A stretch of DNA of 64,000 nt from Arthrobacter roseus (lineage in GTDB: Bacteria; Actinomycetota; Actinomycetes; Actinomycetales; Micrococcaceae). The stretch is taken from assembly GCF_016907875.1 (NCBI RefSeq), contig NZ_JAFBCU010000001.1, positions 1 to 64,000 of the forward strand, read 5' to 3'. The notes beneath the pieces were generated by a model. The model made no database searches and had not been told where the DNA came from. It saw nothing but the letters and a program-made list of their open reading frames with translations. This document shows, in pieces, positions 15,945 through 31,336 of the stretch; positions within the stretch are counted from its first letter, which is position 1, and each line of letters opens with the position of its first letter. Made by a program: the position numbers and the translations under genes.

Positions 15945-15994
15945 CACCACTTACCTCCTCCTTCGCACACGGACATATCGAAACTCCATCATCA

Positions 15995-18100: not shown

Positions 18101-18119
18101 CTACTATGGAGAATAGTAG
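18101..18119. promoter_or_regulatory. BlaI-type operator, perfect dyad (site 1)
   Basis: CTACTAT (18101-18107), GGAGA, ATAGTAG (18113-18119): a perfect 7-5-7 inverted repeat, 17 bases before the Met-rich peptide start and just upstream of the divergent hydrolase. It matches the dyads at 24002 and 26984, and its half-site recurs in front of the BlaI-like gene. Confidence 0.8.
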
Positions 18120-18136
18120 ATAAAGAGGAGGCGCTC

Positions 18137-18475
18137 ATGCGCATACGTACATGGATATCAGCCGTCGCCGCCACCGGGCTCCTTGCCGCCGGTGCGGCCG
18201 TACCCGCCAGTGCCGCCGCTGGGCATCCCGCACCTGGCAATAGCTCGTCCTCTCCGGCCGAGCAGCATCGGATGGATGGCCAGGACGGTATGCGCAATAT
18301 GGCCGGGATGCACGAGCAGATGATGCAGCAGATGTCGGAGATGGCCAGCATGCACGAGGACATGATGCAAAGAGCCCCGGGCATGGCCCGGATGCACGAG
18401 CAGATGATGGGCGGCCACCCACAGGATGGCATGCCATCAGCGCCCACTGGCGAAGAGCAGGGGGAAACCCGATGA
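18137..18475 (+). CDS. Secreted Met/His-rich small protein, probable copper binder
   Basis: 112 residues with a cleavable signal peptide (basic RIRTW start, hydrophobic AAATGLLAAGAAVPASA). The mature part carries repeated Met/His blocks: QHRMDGQDGMRNMAGMHEQM, MASMHEDMM and MARMHEQMMGGH. Such Met-x-x-Met/His stretches bind Cu(I) in periplasmic chaperones, although no named family is recognised. GAGGAGG lies 5-6 bases before the ATG. It is the first gene of an operon behind a perfect BlaI-type dyad and overlaps the next gene by 4 bases. Copper binding is inferred from composition and context. Confidence 0.75.
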   Translation: MRIRTWISAVAATGLLAAGAAVPASAAAGHPAPGNSSSSPAEQHRMDGQDGMRNMAGMHEQMMQQMSEMASMHEDMMQRAPGMARMHEQMMGGHPQDGMPSAPTGEEQGETR

Positions 18476-18708
18476 GCGAAGCCCTACTCGCCCTTGCCGT
18501 ACTGGCATGCCCGGTCGGTATGGGAGTCATGATGTGGCTCATGATGCGCGGCAGTAAGAACAGTTCGCCGTCGGCTCCGGATCCCTCCCCTGCCACTGAA
18601 ACGGAGTTAACGAAGTTGCGCGCCGAGGTGGACCAGCTCCGCGCAAGTGAGCGGGACTCCGGGCAGAACCCGCCGACCCTGCCTTCGAAGAGTACTGGCT
18701 CGCGATGA
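18472..18708 (+). CDS. Small membrane protein with Met-rich helix and coiled coil
   Basis: 78 residues. One N-terminal transmembrane helix (LLALAVLACPVGMGVMMWLM) contains Cys, Pro and several Met, followed by a polar linker and a short heptad segment TELTKLRAEVDQLRA. Starts at an ATGA overlap with the upstream gene and itself overlaps the next by 4 bases, so the three are translationally coupled. No family name can be assigned. The Cys-Pro and Met cluster inside the membrane, in a metal island, fits a metal-related role, but this is inference. Confidence 0.7.
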   Translation: MSEALLALAVLACPVGMGVMMWLMMRGSKNSSPSAPDPSPATETELTKLRAEVDQLRASERDSGQNPPTLPSKSTGSR

Positions 18709-18926
18709 GCGAGCTCGGCTTCGCCGCAGTGGTTCTTCTGTTGTCGCTGGCAGTGACTTACTTCTTCTGCTTACGTCCGATGCGTCAGGACCGGTGTGCG
18801 ATGGCGGGCAAAGCCAGTACCGGTGAACAGTCCCACTCCACACGCAATGACGAGGCGGAAATCTCGCGTTTGCGCGAAGAAGTCGCAGCGCTGCGCGGTG
18901 AGTCACTCACTCATAAATCTGATTGA
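18705..18926 (+). CDS. Small membrane protein with C-terminal coiled coil
   Basis: 73 residues, similar in design to its upstream neighbour: one transmembrane helix (LGFAAVVLLLSLAVTYFFCL) followed by RPMRQDRCAM and a heptad-like end EAEISRLREEVAALRGE. Overlaps the previous gene by 4 bases (ATGA). The matching coiled-coil tails suggest that the two small proteins pair with each other. Not recognised as a named family. Confidence 0.65.
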   Translation: MSELGFAAVVLLLSLAVTYFFCLRPMRQDRCAMAGKASTGEQSHSTRNDEAEISRLREEVAALRGESLTHKSD

Positions 18927-19120
18927 TCACCGTAATCCGCCCGGATTATGGTTCGCGAGAAAACAGTTGCTAACTTTAACGGACTCCCTGGCCACGGCGC
19001 GCCCATGCCCATGGCCGTGCAGATCTAAGATCCCTGACATATCAGCTGACGCTGCCACCTAGGACACCGCTGACCGGGTCCGCCTCCCAGCCGCACTAAC
19101 TCAATACCAAGGATTTCACC

Positions 19121-20062
19121 GTGAACGACATATCCCGAGTGCCACCAGCGTCAAAACCCGCGACACTGGCTAAACCTTCGAAATCGCGCCGCACCGTTGT
19201 CGGCCGCCGCCGATGGGTTGGCGCAGCGGTGGCAGCTGTCATTGCCGTCGGCGGTGGGATCGGTGTTCTTGCTGCCACTGGCGGTAACGACGCCGACGCC
19301 GAAGCGTCCGGGGCCACGGCCGGTCCGTATGTAGGCGGTGACCTGCACGTGTTGACCGCCCTCCAGGGCAAGCTCTATGTGGGCGGGCACGATGGCGGGG
19401 CTGTTTCGACCGACGGCGGCAACACTTGGGCCCAGCTCCCCTCGCTGAAAGGAACCGACCCGATGGGTGTGGCCGCAACGGAGGAAACGACGCTCATTGG
19501 CGGCCACCCGGGCCTTTACCAGTCTGACGACGGTTCATCCTTCACTAAGGTCACCGGCGAAGGGGCCCTCGATGATGTCCATGCCCTCGGCGGTTCAGAC
19601 GAAATTCTCTACGCCGGCACGACGCAGGGCGGGCTGCAGGTGAGCGAGGACGGCGGGAAGAGTTGGACGACCCGAAACGGTGAGGTGGGCCGATCCTTTA
19701 TGGGGGTCATTTTGGTTGACCCTGCCGACCCTAAGCGGCTAATCGTACCGGATATGGCTAATGGTCTGGTATCCAGTAACGATGGTGGCCGCACCTGGAC
19801 CGCTCTGGGTGGCCCCGGCGCGGCGATGGCCGCCGCCTGGGACCCAACCAATACCGAACGGGTCGTGGCGGTGGGCATGGCCGAAAGTGCTATCAGCAGT
19901 GACGGCGGTGAAACCTGGACCGCTTTGACGGTACCTGAAGGCACGACCGCCGCGGCCTTCTCGCCCGACGGGCAAACGCTTTACGCCGCAGCCCTCAGCG
20001 GCACCAACGCCACCGTTTACGCCAGCTCTGACGAGGGCCAGTCATGGACAAACCTGACTTAG
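19121..20062 (+). CDS. Membrane-anchored BNR/sialidase-like beta-propeller protein
   Basis: 313 residues: a basic cytoplasmic start, one transmembrane segment (WVGAAVAAVIAVGGGIGVLA) and an extracellular propeller with repeated Asp-box/BNR motifs such as STDGGNTWAQL, SEDGGKSWTT, SNDGGRTWTAL and SSDGGETWTAL. It resembles the F510_1955-type glycosylhydrolase-like family and is a paralogue of the lipoprotein at 24060. Catalytic sialidase residues are not evident. GTG 19121 has AAGGA 7 bases upstream. It sits between the Met-rich operon and the CopD-CtaG gene, so a role in envelope metal or redox handling is likely but unproven. Confidence 0.8.
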   Translation: MNDISRVPPASKPATLAKPSKSRRTVVGRRRWVGAAVAAVIAVGGGIGVLAATGGNDADAEASGATAGPYVGGDLHVLTALQGKLYVGGHDGGAVSTDGGNTWAQLPSLKGTDPMGVAATEETTLIGGHPGLYQSDDGSSFTKVTGEGALDDVHALGGSDEILYAGTTQGGLQVSEDGGKSWTTRNGEVGRSFMGVILVDPADPKRLIVPDMANGLVSSNDGGRTWTALGGPGAAMAAAWDPTNTERVVAVGMAESAISSDGGETWTALTVPEGTTAAAFSPDGQTLYAAALSGTNATVYASSDEGQSWTNLT

Positions 20063-20126
20063 GACTCATGCGCGGGCTCTCGGCGACGATAATTCGGGCA
20101 TTGGTAGAGGTGGGTGAAGGCCGCAC

Positions 20127-22007
20127 TTGTCGTTAGCTTCCACGGTTCTCTTGAATCCCACCATCAGCTCCTTTGCGATAATGCCGCTGCATGGCGGCTC
20201 GGCCCCACTGGTTGATTTCGGTCAGTTCCTCTTGTGGGCGCTGCCGGTTGCCAAGTTCCTATTCAACGTCTCAGCAGCTGCGACTATCGGTGCCCTCGTC
20301 CTGGCATGCATTGCTTTGACCCCTAACCATCGGGAGTATGCCAGAGCACTAAACTCCGCCGGTATCTCCGCTGCGGTGTGGACGGTGATCTCAGCCGTAA
20401 CCATGATGTTGGCCTACCTGGATGCGGCAGACGGAGTCGCCTCCGATGATTTGTTCGGAGCGGAGTTCGCCCTGTTTGTGACCAGCGTGGGGCTGGGACA
20501 AACTTGGCTGGTGACCACCGTGATCGCTGCCATCGTCACGATGCTGTGCTTTGCGGTCAGGAACGCGGTGCCCGTCGGCGCCGTGACTCTCCTGGCGATC
20601 GGTGGGTTGGTGCCCCTGACGCTTAACGGGCACCCAAACTATGGTGAGGGCCACGAGGCCGGGATGGCCGCCTTCGGGCTTCACATTATCGCCGCAGCCC
20701 TCTGGTTAGGCGGTCTCATCACTCTCGTCGTGCTGCGTCCCGTACTCACTCCCGGCAGACTGACGGTCATTGTTAGACGCTATTCGGCTTTGGCCCTGTT
20801 CTCTTTCATCGTGCTCGCCGCCTCCGGTTACCTCAGAGCGCAGGTGACGATCGGAACGCTGGAAAACCTGTCCTCCGCCTTCGGGCTCCTTGTCCTGGTG
20901 AAGGCTTTTGCCTTGGTTGTCCTCGGCGTGCTTGGCTTCGCGCAGCGCCGCTGGATCATCTCCAGAATGGAACGGGACCCGGCAGACAGCATGAAACCCT
21001 TCTGGACATTCGTCACCGCCGAACTGCTCTTTATGGGCCTGGCCTCAGGCATAGCACCGATCTTGGCGCAGATCGAGTCGCCCATCCCTGATGTTCCCGT
21101 CGCCTACAGCACTCTCGCCGAGCGGATGGTCGACGCACCACTTCCCCCAGCTCCCGGACCTTGGAACTACTTCACCGAGTTCGGTTTCGATCCGATCTGG
21201 TTCCTGCTCTTCAGCTCCGGAGTCCTCTTTTACCTGGCCGGCGTCCGCCGTCTACACAGAGCGGGCGGCCGGTGGCCTGCCCGGCGGAGCGTTTACTGGC
21301 TGACCGGTCTGATGATGCTGCTCTACATCACCAATGGCGGTCTCAATGTCTACCGGGAGTTCCTCCTCAGTGCGCAGGTGCTCGCACAGGTGATCCTCAC
21401 CACAATAATTCCGGTCCTGCTCGCCGCCGGGCACCCCGTTATCCTCGCATCACGGACGATAAGTGTCCGCGATGACGGGAGCTGGGGTCCCCGGGAATGG
21501 ATCAAGGCCGCGAGCCGGTCACCGCTGGCAGGTGCACTTGCGCACCCCTATGCGGGCGCGGCTGTCCTGAGCGCATCACTTGTCATTTTCTATTACTCGC
21601 CGCTGCTGCAGTGGGCCGCTCGGGATCCCCTGGGCCATCAATGGATGATGGCGCACTTCCTGGCCGTCGGCGTCCTGTTCGTCAATTCGCTGAGGCGCTC
21701 GGCGTCCGGACCGGGGAGTCGACCTCCGAACGCCCTTTACGCGGTGCTGGCGGCAACGATGTTCTACATTGCCCTAGGTCTCTTTCTGCTGAGCAGCCCC
21801 AATCTCCTTCTACCCGAATGGTACGGGGCCATGGAAAGCCCCTGGGCCATGAGCGCGATGACTGACCAACGGCTGGCCGGCGCCTATATGTTGAGCATCG
21901 ACGTCATCCAGGGTTCCTTGTTGACTCTCGTGCTGCTCAGACGCGGCGGATTAGAAAGTAGACCGCCGGAAACACCGACGATAGCCGTGACTAGCAGAAA
22001 TCGCTGA
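20127..22007 (+). CDS. CopD-CtaG fusion: copper transport / cytochrome oxidase assembly protein
   Basis: 626 residues, polytopic. The N-terminal half (about 20-300) is a CopD-type copper import domain with many helices; the C-terminal half (about 320-600) is a CtaG/caa3-assembly domain (FGFDPIWFLLFSSGVLFYLA, QVLAQVILTTIIPVLLAAGH, DPLGHQWMMAHFLAVGVLFV, YMLSIDVIQGSLLTLVLLRR). The fusion is known in actinobacteria and is thought to supply copper to the oxidase. TTG 20127 is selected because AAGG lies 6 bases upstream. It overlaps the convergent M56 gene by 17 bases. Confidence 0.88.
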   Translation: MSLASTVLLNPTISSFAIMPLHGGSAPLVDFGQFLLWALPVAKFLFNVSAAATIGALVLACIALTPNHREYARALNSAGISAAVWTVISAVTMMLAYLDAADGVASDDLFGAEFALFVTSVGLGQTWLVTTVIAAIVTMLCFAVRNAVPVGAVTLLAIGGLVPLTLNGHPNYGEGHEAGMAAFGLHIIAAALWLGGLITLVVLRPVLTPGRLTVIVRRYSALALFSFIVLAASGYLRAQVTIGTLENLSSAFGLLVLVKAFALVVLGVLGFAQRRWIISRMERDPADSMKPFWTFVTAELLFMGLASGIAPILAQIESPIPDVPVAYSTLAERMVDAPLPPAPGPWNYFTEFGFDPIWFLLFSSGVLFYLAGVRRLHRAGGRWPARRSVYWLTGLMMLLYITNGGLNVYREFLLSAQVLAQVILTTIIPVLLAAGHPVILASRTISVRDDGSWGPREWIKAASRSPLAGALAHPYAGAAVLSASLVIFYYSPLLQWAARDPLGHQWMMAHFLAVGVLFVNSLRRSASGPGSRPPNALYAVLAATMFYIALGLFLLSSPNLLLPEWYGAMESPWAMSAMTDQRLAGAYMLSIDVIQGSLLTLVLLRRGGLESRPPETPTIAVTSRNR

Positions 22008-23022
22008 CATGGGCAGGAAGGCCCATGTTCTCCGCTGAGCAATTTCCCTGAAGATTGGAGCTGCTGCTGGGCATATCGGTAGGGCAGAGCATATCCTGAC
22101 CGGCAGTGGCGGCCGGCGCTGCCAAAATCACCAAGGGCAGTACTATCACAGCAGCGGCGGCCATGCCCGTCACCATGGTTCGTACCGGGCCCAGTGGATT
22201 GGCCGGCGCGACAAGACGCCGGACCCGAACCAGTGCAGTATCGCCGCCGGCAGCCAATGCGGCGGCAGGGGCAGCGCCGCGTTCGGCCAGCCGTACCAGG
22301 GCGGTAGCAACGGTGAGCCGGGGGCTGCTACGAACTGCGGTGTCGTCGGCGAGCATCTCCACCAGGGCGATCATTTCGGTATGAGCGATACGGAAAGCAG
22401 CCAGCCGCGGAAACGCCCGGCGCAGGGCATCGGCCGCTGCCAGAATCAGGTGATGATTGCCCTGCAAGTGAGCCCGCTCGTGCGCCAGCACGGCGGCAAA
22501 CTGGTCCTCATCCAAAGCCTCAAGGGCGGCGGTGGTGAACACCACCGTCCGATGCCGACCCGGTAGACAATAAGCGGCGGCGCAGGGGTGATCAACCACC
22601 AGAGCCTCGGAGCCTTGATGGTGCTGTGCGACCATGACCAGCGCGTCTAACTGAACTTTCTTCGTCCGTCGGCCGCTGAGAAGGCCACGGAAAAGGCAGA
22701 ATCCGACCCGGCCGATCACCGCAAAGGCGAGCACCGCACCGGTGGCGCTCACGGCCACCCCGCCGGGAGTTGAATACTGGGCCTGCAGGGCCATGGCACA
22801 TGATTCAATCAGGGCCGCCAAATCCGTGGTCCACGGAATAGCGGGAACGGCCAGCGACAGGCCGGCGAACACAACCGCGAGCAGTACCGACGCACTCAGC
22901 GCCTGCCAGGCCAGGATGCCCAGCCGTGGCGCTCGGCTCGGCCAGTCCAGACGACGCAGGAGCCGTGGGCCAAGCACAGCTGTAACGAGAGCAAAGACGA
23001 ACAGGGTGATGGGTGCTGTCAT
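21991..23022 (-). CDS. M56-family membrane metalloprotease with short Cys/Met extracellular tail
   Basis: 343 residues. Four transmembrane helices (about 4-22, 35-62, 87-115, 283-305) flank a cytoplasmic zinc-protease domain with HExxH-type HERAH (181-185) and a downstream VEMLADDTA Glu. This is the BlaR1/MecR1 plan, but the penicillin-binding sensor is absent: after TM4 only about 38 residues follow, with Cys313, Cys328, Cys343, Met311, Met317, Met333 and His338. By BlaR1 topology this tail is outside. It overlaps the BlaI-like gene by 4 bases, forming a repressor-protease pair that probably senses a metal or thiol state rather than a beta-lactam. Confidence 0.85.
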   Translation of the reverse strand: MTAPITLFVFALVTAVLGPRLLRRLDWPSRAPRLGILAWQALSASVLLAVVFAGLSLAVPAIPWTTDLAALIESCAMALQAQYSTPGGVAVSATGAVLAFAVIGRVGFCLFRGLLSGRRTKKVQLDALVMVAQHHQGSEALVVDHPCAAAYCLPGRHRTVVFTTAALEALDEDQFAAVLAHERAHLQGNHHLILAAADALRRAFPRLAAFRIAHTEMIALVEMLADDTAVRSSPRLTVATALVRLAERGAAPAAALAAGGDTALVRVRRLVAPANPLGPVRTMVTGMAAAAVIVLPLVILAAPAATAGQDMLCPTDMPSSSSNLQGNCSAENMGLPAHVSDFC

Positions 23023-23396
23023 GACCGGCGCTCATCGTCATGCGGATCGTGTTCGCCCAGTGCTTCACGGAGCAGCGCGATGTTATCTGAGGGTATGGTC
23101 TCCAGAAAGTGCAGCAGGGCCGCTGAGGGGTTAGTGCTTGATGCCAATGCCTGCCCCATGATGGTCGCCGTGTATTCATCGCGGGGCTGCGCAGCCCGGT
23201 ATCGGTAGGCTCTGCCATCTTTCTCGCGCACCAGCATTCCCTTGCGGTGCAAGTTATCCATCACCGTCATCACTGTGGTGTAGGCAAGGGGGCGATCACC
23301 GTGTAGCTCTTCGAGCACGTCCCGGACGGCAACCGGGCGGTTTAAAGACCACAACCGTTCCATCACAACCGCTTCCAACTCTCCGAGCCGTTGCAC
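23019..23396 (-). CDS. BlaI/MecI/CopY-family repressor
   Basis: 125 residues with the BlaI winged helix: LGELEAVVMERLWSLNRPVA, TTVMTVMDNLHRKGMLVREK and RAYRYRAA. This family binds TACTA-type dyads as a dimer and is released by cleavage through an M56 protease or, in CopY, by copper. No CopY C-terminal CxC pair is seen, so release by the coupled M56 protease is more likely. Dyads of the expected type occur before its own gene and at five other island promoters. Confidence 0.9.
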   Translation of the reverse strand: MQRLGELEAVVMERLWSLNRPVAVRDVLEELHGDRPLAYTTVMTVMDNLHRKGMLVREKDGRAYRYRAAQPRDEYTATIMGQALASSTNPSAALLHFLETIPSDNIALLREALGEHDPHDDERRS

Positions 23397-23438
23397 TGCC
23401 CACCTCTTTCACCGTTGTCCCAGCCCGTGTACGAGCAT

Positions 23439-23457
23439 TTCCTACGTTCTATAGTAG
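23439..23457. promoter_or_regulatory. BlaI-type half-conserved operator before the blaI-like gene (site 2)
   Basis: The right half ATAGTAG (23451-23457) is intact; the left half (23439-23445, TTCCTAC) matches the CTACTAT consensus at 4 of 7 positions. It sits about 45 bases upstream of the repressor start on the minus strand, suggesting autoregulation with weaker binding than sites 1, 3 and 5. Confidence 0.55.
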
Positions 23458-23583
23458 ATGATCAGGAGATACACCGCTCCAGCGCAGGAGACTACCAGGA
23501 CCGATTTGCGGGTCCTTGCAGCTCAACTGGTGCCGCACAACGCCAGGCTGTTGACTCCCCAAAAGCATGGCAGCGGCGTGCAG

Positions 23584-23971
23584 CTATTTATCGACGTTCC
23601 GGAGCCGCAGTGAGTTCAGAACCACCAGCACGGAGCTGGCAGCCATGGCCCCGCCGGCGATAATCGGACTAAGCAGGCCAAGCGCCGCAATCGAAATTCC
23701 CAGAGTGTTGTAGGCAAAGGGCCCAGAACACGTGCATCGTGATCGTGCTGAGCGTCCTGCAAGATAGCTCAATGGCTTGAGCCACTTGGGCCAGATCGTT
23801 GCCCATTACTGTGAGGTCAGCGGCCTCGATCGCCACGTCGGTTCCCGAGCCCATCGCGATTCCCGGATCTTCCTGAGCGAGGGCTGCAGCGTCGTTCACG
23901 CCGTCGCCAGCCATGGCACCCGTGAGACCCTGTGCCTGCAGGCCCTTGACGGCGTCGACCTTTCCTTCCAC
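23584..23971 (-). pseudogene. C-terminal fragment of a P1B copper ATPase (CopA-like)
   Basis: Only the end of the P-domain and the last two transmembrane helices remain. GKVDAVKGLQAQG, MAGDGVNDAAALAQEDPGIA and [17 protein letters not shown] carry the conserved GDGVND hinge. The continuation [16 protein letters not shown] and [19 protein letters not shown] is in a second frame, with the shift near 23725. The heavy-metal domain, CPC membrane motif and DKTGT phosphorylation site are missing. The fragment begins just beside the dyad at 24002, so the ATPase was cut out of the island. Confidence 0.85.
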
Positions 23972-24001
23972 GCGGCCGCCTGGACGTATTCAGAACGTTT
24001 T

Positions 24002-24020
24002 CTACTATGCAGTATAGTAG
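24002..24020. promoter_or_regulatory. BlaI-type operator, perfect dyad (site 3)
   Basis: CTACTAT (24002-24008), GCAGT, ATAGTAG (24014-24020), a perfect 7-5-7 repeat 39 bases upstream of the beta-propeller lipoprotein start. It should control the lipoprotein-lgt-DUF3105 unit. Confidence 0.8.
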
Positions 24021-24059
24021 GTGGGTCTGTACGAGTCCCCACAGTTTCGAAAGTAAGTT

Positions 24060-24950
24060 ATGCCTTCACTTCCAACGCCCCGGCGGCGCGCAGCAAAGTC
24101 ACTCTCCCTCATGCTCGGCGCAACAGTGCTCCTGTCCGCTTGTTCTGGCTCCTCCGCCGGCGAGAATGACCCCGCCGAAAGTCACTCCGACTCCGCGACG
24201 GGCGGTTATCCGACCGGCCATATTCACGGCATGACCGTAGCCCCGGAAACCGAGGACGTGCTTCTGGCCACGCACGATGGCCTATTCAACGTATCGAACC
24301 ATCCTGTGACGAAGATTGGGCCGCCGATCGACCTGATGGGATTCACGGCCAGAGGATCGGGAGAGTTTTATGCCTCCGGCCACCCCGGTCTGGGAAACGA
24401 TATGCCGAACCCGGTCGGGTTGATCGAATCAACCGACGGCGGGCAGACCTGGAAGATCCTCTCCAGGGAAGGTGAGTCGGACTTCCACACGCTCACGACC
24501 TCAGATGGAAACGTGGTCGCCTTCGACGGGACAGTGAGAACCAGTGAAGACGGCCAAACCTGGGAGTCATCCCCCACAAATATCCAGCCCTTCGACCTGG
24601 CCGGCAGCCCCCGCTCGGACGTTGTTCTGGCAACGACTGAGGAGGGGCTGCAGCGCTCCACCGATTCGGGATCAAGTTGGGCCAGCGTGCCGGGGGCTCC
24701 GGTCTTAATGTTCACCACGTTCGCTGGTGCCGAAATAGCCGTTGGTATTACCCCCGGCGGTCAGGTGCATGTAAGCAACGACGCGGGGCTCAGCTGGGCC
24801 AACACCGGTTCGATCCAGGGTCAACCGGCCGCGATCGCCGCCACGGCAAGCACAGACGAGGATCTGAAGGTGTGGGTGGCGTCTGCAGAGAACGTCCAGG
24901 TCTCTGAGGACGGCGGGAAGACTTTCGCCGCAATGGTGGCGGGCAAATGA
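24060..24950 (+). CDS. Beta-propeller lipoprotein (BNR repeats, F510_1955-like)
   Basis: 296 residues. Lipoprotein signal with lipobox LLSAC (Cys28), an acidic/Ser linker, then a propeller starting GYPTGHIHGMTVAPETEDVL and carrying Asp-box repeats (STDGGQTWKIL, SEDGQTWESS, STDSGSSWASV, SNDAGLSWANT, SEDGGKTFAAM). It is a paralogue of the anchored protein at 19121. The IHGM segment near the start is common to this family. It overlaps lgt by 4 bases, which fits because lgt lipidates such proteins. Enzymatic activity is not demonstrated by any visible catalytic set. Confidence 0.82.
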   Translation: MPSLPTPRRRAAKSLSLMLGATVLLSACSGSSAGENDPAESHSDSATGGYPTGHIHGMTVAPETEDVLLATHDGLFNVSNHPVTKIGPPIDLMGFTARGSGEFYASGHPGLGNDMPNPVGLIESTDGGQTWKILSREGESDFHTLTTSDGNVVAFDGTVRTSEDGQTWESSPTNIQPFDLAGSPRSDVVLATTEEGLQRSTDSGSSWASVPGAPVLMFTTFAGAEIAVGITPGGQVHVSNDAGLSWANTGSIQGQPAAIAATASTDEDLKVWVASAENVQVSEDGGKTFAAMVAGK

Positions 24951-25855
24951 AAACTGCAGCAGCCGTTCTCACCGAGACCCAGACCTATATTCCTTCCCCG
25001 ACTGTGAGTGCTTTCGATCTGGGTCCGGTCACGATCCACTTCTATGCACTCTCCATTCTCGCCGGTATCGTCGTGGCCGCGTATCTTACCGAGCGCAGGT
25101 TCGTAGCCAGGGGAGCCGAACGTGGGACAGCGTTCGACATCGTGGTGTGGGCTGTGCCCTTTGGGGTTGTGGGCGGGCGGATCTATCACGTCATCACTGA
25201 CCCACAGCTCTACTTTGCCCCCGGGAGGAACCCGTGGGATGCGTTGAAGATTTGGGAGGGCGGCCTCGGTATTTGGGGCGCCGTTGCTCTAGGAGCACTG
25301 GGGGCGTGGATAGGATGCCGTCGGCACAACGTGTCATTTCTCGCCTTCGCCGATTCAGCAGCCCCCGGCGTACTGTTTGCTCAGGCACTGGGGCGTTGGG
25401 GGAACTGGTTTAACAACGAGCTCTACGGTGAATCAACGACCGTTCCATGGAAATTGGAGATCCACGAGATGTCCGCCGGCCGCGCCGTCTTGGACGCCGC
25501 CGGAAACCCCGTCGTACTGGGTTACTTCCACCCCACCTTCCTCTACGAGTCGCTGTGGGCTCTGGCCGCGGGCCTCATTTTGCTGCTGGTTGATCGAAAG
25601 CGAAATATCGGGGCCGGCGGGATCTCGGCGCTGTACATCGTTTTGTACACGGCCGGGCGGTTCTTCATTGAACTCATGAGATCAGACACCGCGAACCTTA
25701 TCCTCGGCCTCCGTGTTAACACTTGGGTCTCCGGCTTGCTCTTTGTGATTGCTCTGCTGGTGTTTATCCAACGCAAAAACTATGGCCGATCCCGCGCGCA
25801 CCCCAATGAGGGACAGATCGAGCCGGCCGACGGTTCTCCGGCAGAGAGCCGATAA
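24947..25855 (+). CDS. lgt: Prolipoprotein diacylglyceryl transferase
   Basis: 302-residue polytopic enzyme transferring diacylglycerol from phosphatidylglycerol to the lipobox Cys of prolipoproteins. The signature GRWGNWFNNELYG is at 149-161 with the essential Arg, the Tyr/His region GGRIYHVITD is near 78, and the C-terminal helix carries GRFFIELMRSDT. Starts in an ATGA overlap with the lipoprotein gene. An lgt tied to lipoproteins in a metal island is usually a second, accessory copy; whether the main copy exists elsewhere cannot be seen. Confidence 0.93.
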   Translation: MKTAAAVLTETQTYIPSPTVSAFDLGPVTIHFYALSILAGIVVAAYLTERRFVARGAERGTAFDIVVWAVPFGVVGGRIYHVITDPQLYFAPGRNPWDALKIWEGGLGIWGAVALGALGAWIGCRRHNVSFLAFADSAAPGVLFAQALGRWGNWFNNELYGESTTVPWKLEIHEMSAGRAVLDAAGNPVVLGYFHPTFLYESLWALAAGLILLLVDRKRNIGAGGISALYIVLYTAGRFFIELMRSDTANLILGLRVNTWVSGLLFVIALLVFIQRKNYGRSRAHPNEGQIEPADGSPAESR

Positions 25856-25895
25856 GCAAGATAAAAGGACTACATCCAGGAGAGGAACTATCTAC

Positions 25896-26534
25896 GTGGT
25901 AAAGAAGAAACAGCAGGAAACCAATGACCGGCGAGCCAAAGCCGCTGCCATTCGGGCCAAGCATCAGAGCGCCGAACGGCGACACAAGATTCTCGTCTAC
26001 GGGATATCATCCCTGGTCATTGTGGCGCTGATCGGCGTCGTTGCCTTTGTCCTGGTGGGCGAGGCCCAGCGCCAGGCTGCCACTGAGGAAGCGGCGAGCA
26101 GACCCATTGCGGGCGTGGAAAAGTTTGAGGATTTATCACGCAATCACGTCCAGGAGCCCATCGACTATGAGCAGTCGCCCGGCGTCGGCGGCGACCATGC
26201 GCCGGTATGGGTCAACTGCGGCGTCTACACCTCCCCGGTGGACGAAAAGCCGGCCGTGCATTCCCTCGAGCATGGGGCCGTGTGGCTCACGTACAACTCA
26301 GACCTGCCCGATGACCAGGTACAGGAACTCACCGACCTGGTGGACTCCAGAAGCTATGTCTTATTGAGCCCGAACCCGGATCAGGAGGCTCCTCTTGTCG
26401 CGCCTGCCTGGGGCACCCAACTCACACTCGATGGTGCTGCTGATGAGCGGCTGGAACCCTTCCTGGCCGCCTACGTTCAGGGCCCCCAGACACCTGAACC
26501 AGGAGCATCCTGCTCGGGTGGGGTGGACGGTTAG
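25896..26534 (+). CDS. DUF3105 membrane-anchored protein
   Basis: 212 residues from GTG 25896, chosen because AGGAGAGG lies about 10 bases upstream. A lysine-rich cytoplasmic start and one helix (ILVYGISSLVIVALIGVVAF) are followed by the extracellular DUF3105 domain: HAPVWVNCGVYTSPVDEKPA, VHSLEHGAVWLTYN and LVAPAWGTQLTLD. The conserved NCG/Y and HSLEHGAVW features make metal binding plausible (His, Glu, Cys). DUF3105 proteins are widespread in actinobacterial copper and cytochrome loci. It follows lgt by 40 bases. Confidence 0.85.
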   Translation: MVKKKQQETNDRRAKAAAIRAKHQSAERRHKILVYGISSLVIVALIGVVAFVLVGEAQRQAATEEAASRPIAGVEKFEDLSRNHVQEPIDYEQSPGVGGDHAPVWVNCGVYTSPVDEKPAVHSLEHGAVWLTYNSDLPDDQVQELTDLVDSRSYVLLSPNPDQEAPLVAPAWGTQLTLDGAADERLEPFLAAYVQGPQTPEPGASCSGGVDG

Positions 26535-26562
26535 TCAGACTTGCCTGGGAAGCGGTTGGCCA

Positions 26563-26823
26563 TCAGTCGTTGCCCAGGGCAGTGCGGCGGCGCTGGTACT
26601 CTTCGTCATCAATCTCCCCGGCCGCGAAGCGCTTGCGCAGAACACTATGGGCTTCACCAGAATCTGCTGCAGGTTCGCTCCGCGTGGACGCTCCCTGCCT
26701 GCCGGCACGGACGGCCAGAACAATGACCGCGGCCACCGCAGCGGCCAGCAACAGCAACAGCAGAATCCCCCAAATCATGACTCCGCCCATCATTCCACCC
26801 ATCATTGCGCCCACACCCATCAC
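26563..26823 (-). CDS. SHOCT-domain small membrane protein with Met-rich N-terminus
   Basis: 86 residues. The N-terminus MMGVGAMMGGMMGGVMIWGI is very rich in Met and Gly, then one transmembrane helix (LLLLLLAAAVAAVIVLAV) and a C-terminal SHOCT motif (HSVLRKRFAAGEIDDEEYQR). SHOCT tails bind nucleic acid or partners in many small proteins. Met-rich starts of this kind recur in copper and silver islands. Upstream on its strand is a BlaI-type dyad at 26858. It lies convergent to the DUF3105 gene. Confidence 0.85.
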   Translation of the reverse strand: MMGVGAMMGGMMGGVMIWGILLLLLLAAAVAAVIVLAVRAGRQGASTRSEPAADSGEAHSVLRKRFAAGEIDDEEYQRRRTALGND

Positions 26824-26857
26824 TCCTGACCTACCTGTTATTCGGACTATTGATAAA

Positions 26858-26876
26858 ATACTATCGTCAATAGTAG
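26858..26876. promoter_or_regulatory. BlaI-type operator (site 4), SHOCT gene promoter
   Basis: ATACTAT (26858-26864), CGTCA, ATAGTAG (26870-26876): one mismatch in the left half. It lies 35 bases upstream of the SHOCT gene start on the minus strand. Confidence 0.75.
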
Positions 26877-26983
26877 ATGAGAGCCTTGTGGTGCCGCCTC
26901 ACTCCGACAGCACTGAAGTGCAAGTCACCCGAACTAGACGAAAACTCACCGCGCGAACAACCAACGGCAAGCCGTACAACCAT

Positions 26984-27002
26984 CTACTATGACACATAGT
27001 AC
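26984..27002. promoter_or_regulatory. BlaI-type operator (site 5), tlpA-side promoter region
   Basis: CTACTAT (26984-26990), GACAC, ATAGTAC (26996-27002): one mismatch. It lies in the divergent region between the SHOCT gene and the cytochrome c maturation operon. Confidence 0.75.
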
Positions 27003-27085
27003 TATTGCCATACGACCTTTTCCCGCCGCAGACAAGTTGCTTGCCGCCCGGGTTTGCCTCTGTCTCTAAGGGGGCGTAAGGGTTG

Positions 27086-27102
27086 TACTACACGCTGTAG
27101 AA
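27086..27102. promoter_or_regulatory. BlaI-like dyad variant (site 6) before tlpA
   Basis: TACTACA (27086-27092), CGC, TGTAGAA (27096-27102). The core CTACA-CGC-TGTAG is a perfect 5-3-5 dyad and is closer to the classical BlaI/CopY TACA/TGTA core than the other five sites. It lies 34 bases before the tlpA start, where a bound repressor would block transcription. Confidence 0.6.
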
Positions 27103-27136: not shown

Positions 27137-27751
27137 GTGAAAGCCGCCGTCGTGAACCAAACCCTGCAACGTCCAATCGGGAGACTGCTCGCCGTCGTCA
27201 TTGTCTTAGTCTTCGCCCTGACCGCTTGCGCGTCCGCTGATCCACTGGCTGACCAAGTTGCGGCGGGAGATGGCAAAAACTACATTGCCGGTGACGGCTC
27301 GATCTCCGAGTACATTCCTGAAGCTCGGGGGGCTTCGGTGGAGCTTTCGGCTGAACTCTACGACGGCACCATGGTGGATTCGGCTGACTGGCAGGGACAG
27401 GTGACGGTGCTGAACTTTTGGTATGCAGCGTGTCCGCCGTGCCGACTTGAAGCCCGGGACCTTGAGTCGCTGCATCAGAAGCATAAGGACAACGGCGTGT
27501 TGTTCTACGGGGTTAACGTTCGTGACCCCGAGGCTACCGCGGCGGCGTTCGAGCGCAATTTCGGTGTGACGTATCCCAGTATTGATGACCAGGACGGCGG
27601 AGTACTCTTCTCGATGACCGATTATGTTCCGCCGCAGGCTGTACCGACGACACTTGTATTGGACAAGCAGGGACGCGTGGCCGCGAGAATTCTTGGCTTG
27701 GTGGATAAGAACACTCTGGACGCCCTGATATCCGAGGCCGTGGCAGAGTAA
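27137..27751 (+). CDS. TlpA/ResA-type thiol-disulfide lipoprotein
   Basis: 204 residues. Lipobox LTAC (Cys31) tethers a thioredoxin domain outside the membrane; the active site is NFWYAACPPC with Cys99 and Cys102, followed by the cis-Pro region QAVPTTLVLDKQG. It reduces apocytochrome c haem-binding cysteines or other exported thiols, with electrons from CcdA. GTG 27137 follows CGGAGAG. First gene of tlpA-ccdA-resB-ccsB, separated from ccdA by 2 bases. Confidence 0.92.
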   Translation: MKAAVVNQTLQRPIGRLLAVVIVLVFALTACASADPLADQVAAGDGKNYIAGDGSISEYIPEARGASVELSAELYDGTMVDSADWQGQVTVLNFWYAACPPCRLEARDLESLHQKHKDNGVLFYGVNVRDPEATAAAFERNFGVTYPSIDDQDGGVLFSMTDYVPPQAVPTTLVLDKQGRVAARILGLVDKNTLDALISEAVAE

Positions 27752-27753
27752 CG

Positions 27754-28560
27754 ATGAACCCGGCCGATATCACAACGCCTGCAACCGTCATCGTGCAGAC
27801 CGCAGCAAACAACCCGTTTGCCGAGACGGTGCTGAGCGGTTCGATGCTATTGGCCATTCCGGTCGCTATCTTGGCCGGCCTAGTCTCGTTCGCCTCGCCC
27901 TGCGTGCTGCCGCTGGTGCCGGGGTATCTGGGCTATGTGACCGGGTTGACCGGGGCGGATCTGGAGCAGCAGAGGCGCGGACGCATGTTCGTCGGTGTCG
28001 GCTTATTCGTGCTGGGATTCTCCGCGGTGTTCATGCTCATTGGGGCCGTGTTCGGCGGCCTCGGTGCCTGGCTGCAGCGAGACGAACAGGCATGGATCAC
28101 TCAAGTTTCAGGTGGCCTGGTGCTTCTCATGGGCGTCATCTTTCTCGGCGGATTCTCCTGGTTCCAGCGGGAGGCGAAGATCCACGCGAAGCCACCGACC
28201 GGCCTTTGGGGGGCGCCGCTGCTGGGAATCACCTTTGGCCTGGGCTGGGCACCCTGTATCGGTCCGACGCTATCGGCCATCCAACTCCTGGCATTCTCCA
28301 GCGGCGCCGGAGCGATCAATGGTGCGTTTCTGACACTCTTTTACAGTCTAGGACTGGGGGTACCGTTCCTGCTGATCGCCCTCGGCGCACGACGCGGGCT
28401 GGGAGCCCTGAAGTTTTTCCGCCGCCACCGCCTGTCGCTGCAGCGTTTCGGCGGCGCCGTGCTGATCCTACTTGGCCTGCTGATGGTTTCAGGTCTCTGG
28501 GGATTCTGGGTAGGACAGCTGCAGGACTGGTTTACCAATGAAGTGAGATTACCGATTTGA
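27754..28560 (+). CDS. ccdA: CcdA, cytochrome c biogenesis transmembrane reductant carrier
   Basis: 268 residues with six transmembrane helices. The paired redox cysteines are in VSFASPCVLPLVPGYLGYVT (helix 1) and GWAPCIGPTLSAI (helix 4). It passes electrons from cytoplasmic thioredoxin to the extracytoplasmic thioredoxin-like partner encoded just upstream. The stop overlaps the resB start (TGATG), so translation is coupled. Confidence 0.93.
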   Translation: MNPADITTPATVIVQTAANNPFAETVLSGSMLLAIPVAILAGLVSFASPCVLPLVPGYLGYVTGLTGADLEQQRRGRMFVGVGLFVLGFSAVFMLIGAVFGGLGAWLQRDEQAWITQVSGGLVLLMGVIFLGGFSWFQREAKIHAKPPTGLWGAPLLGITFGLGWAPCIGPTLSAIQLLAFSSGAGAINGAFLTLFYSLGLGVPFLLIALGARRGLGALKFFRRHRLSLQRFGGAVLILLGLLMVSGLWGFWVGQLQDWFTNEVRLPI

Positions 28561-30206
28561 TGCGCAATACCGTACACGATCAGAAAGTAACAAAGCCGGC
28601 GCCGACAGCGGAATCCACCGACAACGTCGCGCTGCCAGCTCTTGGCTTCATCGGGACCTTACGCTGGGCGTGGCGTCAGCTGACGAGTATGCGCACAGCA
28701 CTATTTTTACTGCTGTTGCTGGCTGTAGCCGCGGTCCCCGGCTCGCTGTTTCCGCAGCGGCCGGCGAACCCCGCCGTCGTGGCCCAGTACATCCAGAACA
28801 ATCCGAGCGCTGGTCCGTGGCTGGACCGCTTCCAGCTCTTTGATGTCTATTCCTCAGTCTGGTTCTCAGCGATCTATCTGCTGCTGTTCATCTCCCTGAT
28901 CGGCTGCGTGTTCCCGCGGGCCAGCCAGCACGCCAAGGCTATCCGCTCACAGCCGCCGCGCACCCCGCAGCGACTATCCCGGCTGCGACACTACGGAGCC
29001 CTAGCCATACCCGCTGAGCGACAGGTCCCGGCATCGCAGGCGGTGGCGGACGCTGCGGCTATCCTCAAGCGCCGCGGCTACCGAGTCGATGTCCGTGATG
29101 CGGACGGGCCGCACCCCTCGGTGGGCGCCGAGCGCGGCTTCATCAAAGAAGTGGGCAATCTGGTATTTCACGCCGCGCTGATCGGTGTGCTGATCTCCGT
29201 CGCCGTCGGCGGGCTGTTTGGTTACCGAGGCCAAAAAATCCTGGTCGAAGACGGCACCTTCATCAACAACCTGGTCAGCTACGACTCGTTCACCCCCGGC
29301 ACGAACTTCAGTGACGGGACGCTCGATCCGTTCTCGATCCGTCTGGACAACTTTGATGTGACCTTCGAGCGTGAAACGACAAGTAACTACGGTCAACCCA
29401 TCGACTTCACCGCCAAGGTCACCACCAAGACCACCCCGGACGCAGAACCGCGGGAACAGGTACTGGAGGTCAACGAACCGCTCTCCTTCAATGGGACCAA
29501 CGTCTACCTGGTCGGAAACGGATATGCACCGGTCATCACCATCCGCGACGGTGAGGGCAACATCACGCTGAGCGAACCGGTGGTCGCCCGCGTCAACGAC
29601 GCCGCCTACACCTCCACCATCGTCATTAAGGCCCCCGACGCCCAGCCGTTCCAGCTAGGCTTCGTCGGGCTGTTCATCCCCACCGCGATGAAAGGCGAAA
29701 ACGGGCAGACTGTAGCCGGGGACCCCGACCCGTTCAATCCGCAGCTGCTGCTCGACTCCTACTATGGCGATCTCGGACTCGATGAGGGCGTGCCGACTTC
29801 CGTCTACACGCTCGATACCTCGGAGCTGACGCAGCTCAACGGTCGTAAACTGGACACCGGCGGCATCGTCCTGGGCGCGTATCAAACGTATGACCTTCCC
29901 GAGGGCAAAGGCTCAATCACCTTTGACGGCCTCAAGCGCTACATCGGTGTCGATATCACCTATGACCCCGGCAAAATCGGGGCGCTCATATTCTCATCCC
30001 TGGCAGTACTGGGTCTGATGACCTCCCTCTTCATCGGCCGCCGCAGGGCGTGGGTGCGCGCCGGCACCCACGAGGACGGGCGCACCATGATCGAATACGG
30101 CCTGCTCGCCCGCGGAGAGGACTACCGGCTCATCGGCGAAGAAAAAGCGCTCCGCACCTTGTTCGAAAACAAATGGTCGACGAGAAACAACAGTGAAGAG
30201 AAGTAA
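28560..30206 (+). CDS. resB: ResB, System II cytochrome c synthetase subunit
   Basis: 548 residues from ATG 28560, which overlaps the ccdA TGA; TTG 28557 is a one-codon longer option. Three N-terminal transmembrane helices, including SMRTALFLLLLLAVAAVPGS with the SLFPQR motif, a large extracytoplasmic domain (about 230-440) and a last helix (GALIFSSLAVLGLMTSLFIG). Together with CcsB it moves haem outward and attaches it to apocytochrome c. The stop touches the ccsB start. Confidence 0.92.
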   Translation: MRNTVHDQKVTKPAPTAESTDNVALPALGFIGTLRWAWRQLTSMRTALFLLLLLAVAAVPGSLFPQRPANPAVVAQYIQNNPSAGPWLDRFQLFDVYSSVWFSAIYLLLFISLIGCVFPRASQHAKAIRSQPPRTPQRLSRLRHYGALAIPAERQVPASQAVADAAAILKRRGYRVDVRDADGPHPSVGAERGFIKEVGNLVFHAALIGVLISVAVGGLFGYRGQKILVEDGTFINNLVSYDSFTPGTNFSDGTLDPFSIRLDNFDVTFERETTSNYGQPIDFTAKVTTKTTPDAEPREQVLEVNEPLSFNGTNVYLVGNGYAPVITIRDGEGNITLSEPVVARVNDAAYTSTIVIKAPDAQPFQLGFVGLFIPTAMKGENGQTVAGDPDPFNPQLLLDSYYGDLGLDEGVPTSVYTLDTSELTQLNGRKLDTGGIVLGAYQTYDLPEGKGSITFDGLKRYIGVDITYDPGKIGALIFSSLAVLGLMTSLFIGRRRAWVRAGTHEDGRTMIEYGLLARGEDYRLIGEEKALRTLFENKWSTRNNSEEK

Positions 30207-31336
30207 TGGGAATCAATGAAGACCTCGGCCAATACAGCGAACTTTTCATGCTCCTGGCCGCCCTGACCTATCTGGTGGCCTTTGGCGCATTCGCCTGGGA
30301 CATGGCCGCCAGCAGCAAGAAACTGGCTGCCATTAACCACCGGGTAGTAACACAGTCAAACGCCGCCGCGGACGGCACAGCACACCCCAACGCCGCAACC
30401 ACGTCTACTGCAGAGACTGCAGAGACTGCCCAAGCCAAGCTTCCCGCCATGGCCGGAACAAGCAGCCACGAAGGACTGACCGGCCCCGAGGACCGGGTCG
30501 CCCGTAGCACCAGCGATTCAACCGGCAACCGTTCATCTGACTCGGTGGCCGATGAGTCCATGCACTACACCAAAGAACGACGTACCGCCGCCCGCATCGG
30601 AGTGGCAGTAACAACATTGGCGTTCGTCGTGCATCTGGCTGCAGTCCTCAGCCGGGGCATCGCCGCTAACAGGGTCCCCTGGGGCAACATGTATGAATTC
30701 GCCACTACCGGGGCGCTGGTAGTGGCCGGTGTCTTCCTCCTGGTTCTCACCCGGAGGGACCTGAGGTTTCTGGGTACCTTCGTCATCGGCCTGGTACTGA
30801 TCATGCTGACTGCCGCGACCATCGGCATCCCCACCCCAGTAGGGAACCTGGTCCCGGCGCTGCAAAGCTACTGGTTGATCATCCACGTCTCCATCGCCGT
30901 CACCGCCTCAGCACTGTTCACTCTGACCTTCGCGATGTCCGTCCTGCAACTGCTCCAAACCCGCCGCGAGGCTGCCCTCACCAACGGAGGGTCTCCGGGC
31001 ATGAGTTTCATGCGCCGCATCCCGGATGCGCTAAGCCTTGAAAATCTCGCCTACCGCATTAACGCCGTCGCCTTCATCCTATGGACCTTCACCCTCATGG
31101 CCGGAGCAATCTGGGCCGAAGAGGCCTGGGGCCGCTACTGGGGGTGGGACACCAAAGAAGTCTGGACCTTCGTCATCTGGGTCATCTTCGCCGCATACAT
31201 GCACGCCCGCGCCACCCGCGGCTGGACCGGCACCCGAGCAGCATGGCTCTGCATCGTCGGCTACCTGTGCATCATCTTCAACTTCGCCATCGTCAACGTC
31301 TACTTCTCCGGCCTCCACTCCTACTCCGGCCTCTAA
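30206..31336 (+). CDS. ccsB: CcsB/ResC, haem-handling cytochrome c biogenesis protein
   Basis: 376 residues. Several transmembrane helices with the tryptophan-rich WWD haem-binding region WGRYWGWDTKEVW near residue 310 and flanking His residues (the VVHLAA and IIHVSI helices). A low-complexity Ala/Thr/Ser/Glu insertion (about 50-115) follows TM1, typical of actinobacterial CcsB. It is the last gene of the maturation operon. No cytochrome c gene is present in the window, so its clients are elsewhere. Confidence 0.93.
   Translation: MGINEDLGQYSELFMLLAALTYLVAFGAFAWDMAASSKKLAAINHRVVTQSNAAADGTAHPNAATTSTAETAETAQAKLPAMAGTSSHEGLTGPEDRVARSTSDSTGNRSSDSVADESMHYTKERRTAARIGVAVTTLAFVVHLAAVLSRGIAANRVPWGNMYEFATTGALVVAGVFLLVLTRRDLRFLGTFVIGLVLIMLTAATIGIPTPVGNLVPALQSYWLIIHVSIAVTASALFTLTFAMSVLQLLQTRREAALTNGGSPGMSFMRRIPDALSLENLAYRINAVAFILWTFTLMAGAIWAEEAWGRYWGWDTKEVWTFVIWVIFAAYMHARATRGWTGTRAAWLCIVGYLCIIFNFAIVNVYFSGLHSYSGL

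Follow-up and report, generated by a model that had tools for sequence, protein, structure and literature searches.

The stretch of DNA analysed here, called the window, comprises 64,000 nucleotides of Arthrobacter roseus (contig NZ_JAFBCU010000001.1, positions 1 to 64,000), and the system in question is a gene island in which a BlaI/MecI family repressor and an M56-type membrane metalloprotease lie among copper-type genes and a set of genes for System II cytochrome c maturation. Six dyad sites lie in its promoter regions. Five of them are perfect or partial copies of CTACTAT-N5-ATAGTAG, referred to here as the island code, and the sixth is assigned to a core code, predicted to belong to a second BlaI of the same genome. 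The features are given below by position in the window, strand and nature (ORF, open reading frame; aa, amino acids).

18101..18119, no strand: island-code dyad, perfect; predicted operator of the Met-rich peptide operon (scans; dyads of 0-1 mismatch before the same genes in relatives)
18137..18475, plus: small secreted-type Met/His-rich peptide, 112 aa, with MHxxMM-like repeats seen by eye
18472..18708, plus: small ORF, 78 aa, overlapping the Met-rich peptide gene; 50-76% identical in other islands; no Pfam match
18705..18926, plus: small ORF, 73 aa, from the ORF list and the islands of relatives; no Pfam match
19121..20062, plus: BNR/beta-propeller protein, NF045728-like but below the cut-off (Pfam, NCBIfam)
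20127..22007, plus: CopD and CtaG fusion membrane protein (PF05425, PF09678)
21991..23022, minus: M56-type membrane metalloprotease, 343 aa, with HExxH and conserved C75 and C313
23019..23396, minus: BlaI/MecI family repressor, 125 aa, no cysteine (PF03965, 94.4 bits)
23439..23457, no strand: asymmetric predicted operator of blaI-M56; promoter-distal half perfect, gene-proximal half three off
23596..23968, minus: P1B-type ATPase remnant, a C-terminal piece split over two frames (tblastn with a P-type ATPase from the related locus L072)
24002..24020, no strand: island-code dyad, perfect; predicted operator of the F510_1955-lgt-DUF3105 operon
24060..24950, plus: F510_1955 family beta-propeller with a lipoprotein-like start seen by eye (NF045728, 250.5 bits against a cut-off of 175)
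24947..25855, plus: Lgt, prolipoprotein diacylglyceryl transferase (PF01790)
25896..26534, plus: DUF3105 protein (PF11303)
26563..26823, minus: SHOCT-domain protein (PF09851)
26858..26876, no strand: island-code dyad, 1 mismatch; predicted operator of the SHOCT gene (identical 19-mer in the related island L070)
26984..27002, no strand: island-code dyad, 1 mismatch; predicted distal operator of the System II operon
27086..27102, no strand: core-code (hybrid) dyad TACTAC-N5-GTAGAA; predicted proximal System II operator, assigned to the core BlaI
27137..27751, plus: ResA/TlpA-like thioredoxin (PF00578)
27754..28560, plus: CcdA (DsbD_TM, PF02683)
28557..30206, plus: ResB (PF05140, 469.9 bits)
30206..31336, plus: CcsA (PF01578)

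A scan of the window with the 19-base dyad confirmed the positions and grades given in the original prediction, which had been made from the sequence alone: perfect copies (0 mismatches) at 18101 and 24002, one-mismatch copies at 26858 and 26984, and a copy with three mismatches at 23439. The variant described at 27086 is also present and reads TACTACACGCTGTAGAA. These five dyads of at most three mismatches compare with a mean of 0.39 and a maximum of 2 in shuffled windows, and none of 100 shuffles reached five. All six sites are intergenic and in promoter positions, as had been claimed, and lie 17 to 134 bp before gene starts taken from the ORF list: the 18101 dyad is 17 bp upstream of the Met-rich peptide gene, 23439 is 42 bp upstream of blaI, 24002 is 39 bp upstream of the F510_1955 gene, 26858 is 34 bp upstream of the SHOCT gene (minus strand), and 26984 and 27086 are, respectively, 134 and 34 bp upstream of the ResA gene.

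In the whole genome (3,076,990 bases, one contig), the scan returned 21 dyads of at most three mismatches, namely two at 0, two at one, one at two and 16 at three, with 23439 among the last. All four sites of at most one mismatch were confined to the island, in line with the original prediction, and the single two-mismatch site (1034082) lies inside a transporter-like ORF. The backward pattern, used as a control, gave 90 genome sites at up to three mismatches, more than the 21 true ones, so that sites with three mismatches, 23439 included, do not by themselves exceed chance. The four strong dyads are therefore significant and the half-conserved 23439, taken singly, is not; as a site it is backed by the recurrence of such sites at BlaI-M56 promoters (29 of 34, its own promoter included). 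The 19121 propeller gene and the CopD/CtaG gene each have no dyad of their own, and no terminator-like site was called in the gaps before them, so that read-through from 18101 into both genes is plausible. A relative of the 19121 propeller in genome G121 (L072) has a one-mismatch dyad of its own.

The island repressor matched the Penicillinase_R model PF03965 with 94.4 bits against a cut-off of 22.6; BlaI proteins are best known as repressors of penicillin resistance. ResA-like thioredoxin, CcdA, ResB and CcsA, the four parts of System II, are present as open genes in one run. The Met/His-rich peptide and the 78- and 73-aa ORFs had no Pfam or NCBIfam match; relatives of the peptide with 48 and 64% identity lie downstream of a dyad in L067 and L069. 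The ATPase remnant, which fills part of the gap between blaI and the dyad at 24002 and comes directly before the latter, has 52 and 50% identity to the P-type ATPase of L072 (tblastn, E = 4e-25). That query has an E1-E2 ATPase domain, a heavy-metal domain just under the cut-off and a cupredoxin-like domain; the latter is fused at the N-terminus of this dyad-linked enzyme (L072 10424-13201, minus strand).

Comparison with other genomes revealed that the island code follows the BlaI-M56 pair. Perfect dyads were found in 13 of 295 genomes of the family, against 0 for the backward control. In all 11 family genomes with a BlaI at least 53% identical, dyads of at most one mismatch are present in the island, where they precede relatives of the same genes in a shuffled order; seven of these 11 genomes belong to the 13 with a perfect dyad. 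The other six perfect-dyad genomes all have pairs 21 bp apart, with 0-2 mismatches in the second copy; nearby, at a distance of about 0.7 kb, is a more distantly related BlaI (30-35% identity). The genus is represented by one further genome in the sample, whose single BlaI match (E = 6.8e-15) is of the core type, sharing 91% identity with the core BlaI; this fits a gain of the island by acquisition.

The comparison was widened to 82 loci around BlaI relatives, of which 80 are named (the best 80 of 520) and two were taken from among 115 plasmid records; at least five of the named loci come from the same genomes as family-set ones, and the two sets thus overlap. With no mismatch allowed, 11 sites were counted in 8 of these loci; with up to one mismatch there were 51 sites in 22 loci, and with up to two, 96 in 30 loci. 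The corresponding means for 150 permutations of the arms were 0.01, 0.03, and 0.41, with a largest count of 6 against the 96 real sites at up to two mismatches. At the same grade, the gap of five bases between the arms gave 96 sites, gaps of 2 and 8 gave 18 and 20 (probably register shifts of CTACTA triplets), gaps of 6 and 11 gave five each, and the rest 0-2. Among the dyad loci are ones from Arthrobacter, Pseudarthrobacter, Paenarthrobacter, Cryobacterium, Nocardioides, Actinomadura, Kribbella, and a Rhodococcus plasmid. An M56 gene, detected by tblastn with the protein of the window, was present in 27 of the 30 dyad loci against 4 of the 52 without dyads. The association of copper-type and System II genes with the dyad, as originally proposed, was also upheld, at 22/30 against 2/52 and 11/30 against 1/52 loci, respectively; the kinship of loci is ignored in all three comparisons. 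The copper-type queries were a P-type ATPase, CopC-CopD, CopD, two multicopper-oxidase-type proteins, and DUF305, ATPases being matched by similarity, whatever their metal. In most dyad-less loci, which are from Streptomyces, BlaI was found alone. L097, L104, L108, and about 40 other loci, mostly Streptomyces, form a separate lone-BlaI group with 50-59% identity to the island BlaI, and no M56, island genes or dyads were found there.

The more distant BlaI of these six genomes with paired TACTAT-code dyads is a third type, observed at L081-L086 (G022, G046, G050, G179, G237, and G069), divergent from a DsbA-CcdA pair that is annotated in L081/G022 only. No M56 gene was found at these loci by tblastn with the M56 protein of the window. 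Unlike the island BlaI, these repressors have two cysteines and may therefore sense directly.

The second BlaI of the genome, the core BlaI, is encoded at 1621421-1621771 with its own M56-type gene. The relaxed pattern TWCTAY-N5-RTAGWA occurs at 16 genome sites, against 3 for the backward control: four island dyads, 27086, and eleven others that read TTCTAC-N5-GTAGAA or are one base off. The core code is written TTCTAC-N5-GTAGWA, and counts across genomes use the perfect TTCTAC-N5-GTAGAA. Its sites lie before the core blaI gene, the chromosomal ResA-CcdA-ResB-CcsA operon, a gene run leading to ATP synthase subunit a, a helix-turn-helix gene before sufB, a chlorite dismutase-ferrochelatase pair, and the genes of succinyl-CoA ligase and flavohaemoglobin. 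Further sites were seen at a divergent ORF pair, one member of which resembles a truncated globin by eye (no Pfam match), at a 195-aa protein before a DUF1775 gene (presumably of the YcnI type), and at two genes of unassigned function.

The perfect core code was present in 247 of the 248 family genomes with a BlaI, against 5 of the 47 without a BlaI match, with one site each. The backward pattern gave 7 sites in these 47 genomes and 0-4 per genome overall. The loci around sites of this count, L196-L225, stand outside the analysed set, as do L020 and L021. Since the 47 belong to three genera only (g3 24, g6 15, g15 8; site counts by eye), the comparison was also made within genera: in g6, the core code was found in 9/9 genomes with BlaI and 0/15 without, and in g15 in 2/3 and 0/8, while g3 has no BlaI in any genome. 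In the core blaI promoter itself, 29 of 30 loci (from 32 genomes with a match) have the perfect code, and 21 of these have it at least twice. Repeated core operators, two or three and often 21-25 bp apart, were observed in the core blaI promoters of L259-L285. Taken together, these counts are strong evidence that TTCTAC-N5-GTAGAA would be the operator of the core BlaI.

The nearest known system in function and sequence is the BlaI-BlaR pair of Mycobacterium tuberculosis (Rv1846c-Rv1845c), likewise a BlaI with a BlaR partner, which resembles the core circuit and not the island. Its regulon was reportedly described by Sala et al. in 2009. The closest solved structure to the BlaI family studied here was 2g9w (E = 2.8e-31), which we take to be the tuberculosis BlaI, Rv1846c. 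Published accounts name the ATP synthase genes (atp operon) as targets of this repressor (PMC5874750, PMC12565901), describe a transposon screen in which BlaR proved necessary for the use of haem (PMC7058343), tie BlaI to ATP synthase and beta-lactams, and restate the BlaI regulon (PMC8265638). It is the core BlaI, not the island BlaI, that matches this target set, whereas the island pair differs in having a code of its own, metal-type targets and two further conserved cysteines in the protease.

The sixth site is where the two codes meet. On the other strand, 27086 reads TTCTACAGCGTGTAGTA, nearly matching TTCTACAACGTGTAGTA, the chromosomal System II operator of the same genome. Among 30 ResA loci, kept out of 70 genomes, a core-code site lies at most 260 bp before ResA in 14, the first eleven by E-value included. 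The two closest islands have a 27086-type site at the same place before the island ResA (L067 13719, L070 3344); in the more distant islands L079 and L080, the pre-ResA site is a hybrid with one island half, and in other islands no pre-ResA site of the 27086 type was seen. Because 27086 fits the code of the core BlaI and nearly matches the chromosomal operator, it is assigned to that code rather than to the island code, and the island is probably run by more than one repressor. The proposal that one repressor-protease pair governs the whole regulon thus has good support at 18101, 23439, 24002, 26858, and 26984, the strong dyads being island-specific and tracking BlaI-M56, and seems to call for a second repressor at 27086. 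The island System II set has all four parts of the usual system, but it comes in addition to the chromosomal set and belongs to a metal island, under an island dyad. Its operon would have one predicted operator of each code, 101 bp apart from centre to centre, which goes beyond the earlier single-repressor account and suggests that metal stress and respiration are wired together at a spare cytochrome c assembly operon.

The operator of the switch genes themselves is regularly one-sided. A site of at most four mismatches lies within 75 bp of blaI in 29 of 34 distinct BlaI-M56 promoters, against 30 of 1560 random 75-mers. In 27 of these 29 sites, the half distal to the gene was the better one, with the proximal half better in one and a tie in one (sign test 1e-7, kinship ignored). 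The target operators are near-perfect, yet they were selected by mismatch count, and the clean result is the asymmetry alone. From it we infer a possible built-in order of release.

The sequences further bear on which protein of the pair perceives the signal. CopY/CopR of Firmicutes resembles the island system in that a regulator of the BlaI/MecI fold family controls copper genes through a dyad, and TIGR02698 (CopY) is the best named NCBIfam match of the island BlaI, although at 31.4 bits against a cut-off of 121.95. The C-terminal CxC metal motifs described as conserved in CopY (PMC5772342) are missing, as the island BlaI has no cysteine in any of the 11 aligned sequences, and the CopY operator consensus given in PMC7253601, TACANNTGTA, is absent from all six sites. 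In addition, the island BlaI has a partner protease. The absence of cysteine and the score far below the cut-off make direct sensing in the manner of CopY unlikely, and the suggestion that copper itself releases the island repressor is not sustained by the 11 sequences.

The M56 protein is likely the sensor. In 35 sequences, H181, E182, H185, and E222 are invariant, and the gene adjoins blaI, as expected of the M56/BlaR type. Its Pfam match was to the related M48 model (41.2 bits), no M56 model being matched; this peptidase match was the only one in Pfam over 343 aa, and no penicillin-binding sensor domain as in BlaR1/MecR1 was found. The AlphaFold model has a mean pLDDT (predicted local distance difference test) of 86.9, and its chain ends about 30 residues after the last helix. 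In a Foldseek search, the model had no match at E ≤ 0.001; a Ste24p chain ranked first and BlaR1 second and third (8exq: probability 1.00, E = 7.7e-3, TM-score 0.38), so that the modelled likeness to BlaR1 appears to be one of kind. The staphylococcal BlaI/MecI-BlaR1/MecR1 systems similarly combine a repressor with a membrane zinc protease with HExxH, but the island protease has no penicillin-binding sensor domain and the island operator is TACTA-N7-TAGTA, while the staphylococcal spacing is N6 rather than N7.

C75 is conserved in 33 of 34 aligned island-type M56 sequences, and 32 have a cysteine in their short tail, whereas the core M56 paralogue has neither. Eight of 30 rows were left out of the alignment: five duplicate genomes, L099, the second copy of L105, and L168. 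If the protease domain is cytoplasmic, as access to BlaI requires, C75 and C313 would lie outside the membrane. Such a pair would suit a Cu(I) site or a disulphide switch, and the gene content points to copper as the probable trigger. Another M56-type group, beside a BlaI of 42-46% identity, combines a CQRC motif of the first outer loop with a cysteine in the tail, as observed at 17 of 19 loci (3-kb family loci L048-L066; L051 is island-like and L063 gave no protease); these proteins are perhaps further metal or thiol sensors.

The residues that may set the code were sought in an alignment of 11 island, four third-type (three distinct), and 30 core BlaI proteins. Fourteen positions between 18 and 70 separate island from core BlaI. 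R25, Y39, and G61 are common to both TACTAT-code groups, while core proteins have mainly N25, V39 (29 V, 1 I), and mainly T or I at 61; position 48 is R in all 30 core proteins and N, T or H otherwise. Positions 39 to 50 align with a helix of MecI, which we take to be the recognition helix.

These data are best explained if the island is one metal-stress regulon under its own BlaI-M56 pair, with the spare System II operon also under a core-type operator, a reading to which a probability of about 0.72 is given. In unstressed cells, a BlaI dimer would occupy the near-perfect TACTAT-N5-ATAGTA operators of the structural operons as well as the weaker, one-sided operator of its own genes. Under metal stress, C75 and C313 on the outer side would receive the signal, probably by binding Cu(I) or a similar metal with affinity for thiols, and activate the M56 protease, whose catalytic domain would face the cytoplasm; the protease would then inactivate BlaI. 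The weak self-operator would allow more of the switch proteins to be made early, and derepression would yield the Met-rich peptide, CopD/CtaG, the propellers, Lgt, DUF3105, SHOCT and the second System II set. The latter would probably stand under two repressors, one for metal and one for respiration.

Several observations weigh against this reading. Four loci (L099, L127, L157, and L168) have BlaI and M56 with no dyad of up to two mismatches, three (L115, L149, and L159) have a dyad with no M56 found, and no self-operator could be recognised in five of the 34 BlaI-M56 promoters. Sixteen of the 30 ResA loci have no core-code site in the 260 bp before the gene. The P1B ATPase of the island is reduced to a remnant, and no c-type cytochrome was found in the island by a CxxCH scan of frames above 70 residues. 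A TTGACA-type -35 box at a fixed distance was not found in the flanks of 133 distinct sites. Model confidence is low for both the C75 loop and the C313 tail, and many positions, not just 39, separate the two BlaI groups.

The same regulon might respond to another signal, such as silver, mercury, disulphide or other thiol stress, or cell-wall or respiratory stress. The thiol cassette DsbA-CcdA beside the more distant BlaI with the same dyad would agree with this, as would the published link of the best solved relative, 2g9w, to ATP synthase and beta-lactams; yet it is rather unlikely in view of the copper-type genes, which lie close behind the dyads in relatives and are concentrated in dyad loci (22/30 against 2/52, with ATPases counted whatever their metal). 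It is also unlikely, a little more so, that the island BlaI alone binds all six sites, as the original prediction had it. The 27086 site does keep one TACTA half within the TWCTA-N7-TAGWA frame, cross-binding between the BlaI proteins of a genome may occur, and the hybrid sites of L079 and L080 contain one full island half. The halves of 27086, however, are of the TACTAC/GTAGAA type, which precedes ResA in 14 of 30 family loci. A BlaI of at least 53% identity is absent from 11 of the 14 genomes concerned, and where no BlaI match exists at all, the core code does not exceed background.

Far less probable is a CopY-type copper sensor in the island BlaI itself: CopY is its best named match, but the score is well short of the cut-off, the 11 sequences have no cysteine, and the six sites have no CopY box. 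That the dyads are ends of mobile elements or parts of promoters is hardly credible; the island is patchy among genomes and its gene order shuffled, but the dyads have no fixed -35 geometry around them, stand upstream of gene starts in many different arrangements and seldom occur at loci in which M56 and island genes were not found.

Beyond the single regulon, a broader and more tentative picture, with somewhat less than an even chance, is that of two parallel actinobacterial BlaI-M56 circuits, a core respiratory one (TTCTAC-N5-GTAGAA: ATP synthase, haem, SUF, and System II) and a mobile metal one (TACTAT-N5-ATAGTA). The metal protease, with no ligand-binding domain, would sense through a bare extracytoplasmic cysteine pair, and the second System II would be the junction of the two. 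A small number of residues in the recognition helix or close to it would determine the code, chief among them position 39, which is Y with TACTAT in two separate BlaI groups and V or I with TTCTAC. The whole-genome test points to separate operator codes for two BlaI proteins in one genome, and the loss of sites in genomes that lost the repressor provides a natural control. Three matters thereby become directly testable: the activation of M56 proteins that lack a drug-binding domain, the means by which paralogous BlaI repressors avoid each other's targets, and the reason for a spare cytochrome c assembly line in copper islands; assembly of c-type cytochromes is a target of copper toxicity. None of the open-access papers listed in the literature searches described a BlaI-M56 copper island or System II control by BlaI, although this negative is a weak one.

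Some further features were observed in and around the islands. The CxxCH scan of the island gave two matches that look spurious, being minus-strand frames that overlap the ResA and CcsA genes. L075 encodes a protein of 425 aa in which one stretch is rich in Met and His; Pfam gave no match for it. A set resembling NADH dehydrogenase follows the SHOCT gene or its neighbours in L075 (4305-11134), L087, L099, and L106; in L075, nuoA, nuoH, nuoL, and nuoM were recognised by Pfam and nuoJ and nuoK by eye. Finally, a pyridine nucleotide-disulphide oxidoreductase is encoded near the island (window 14559-15950, minus strand), and flavoproteins that are similar by eye adjoin the islands of L067, L068, and L072.

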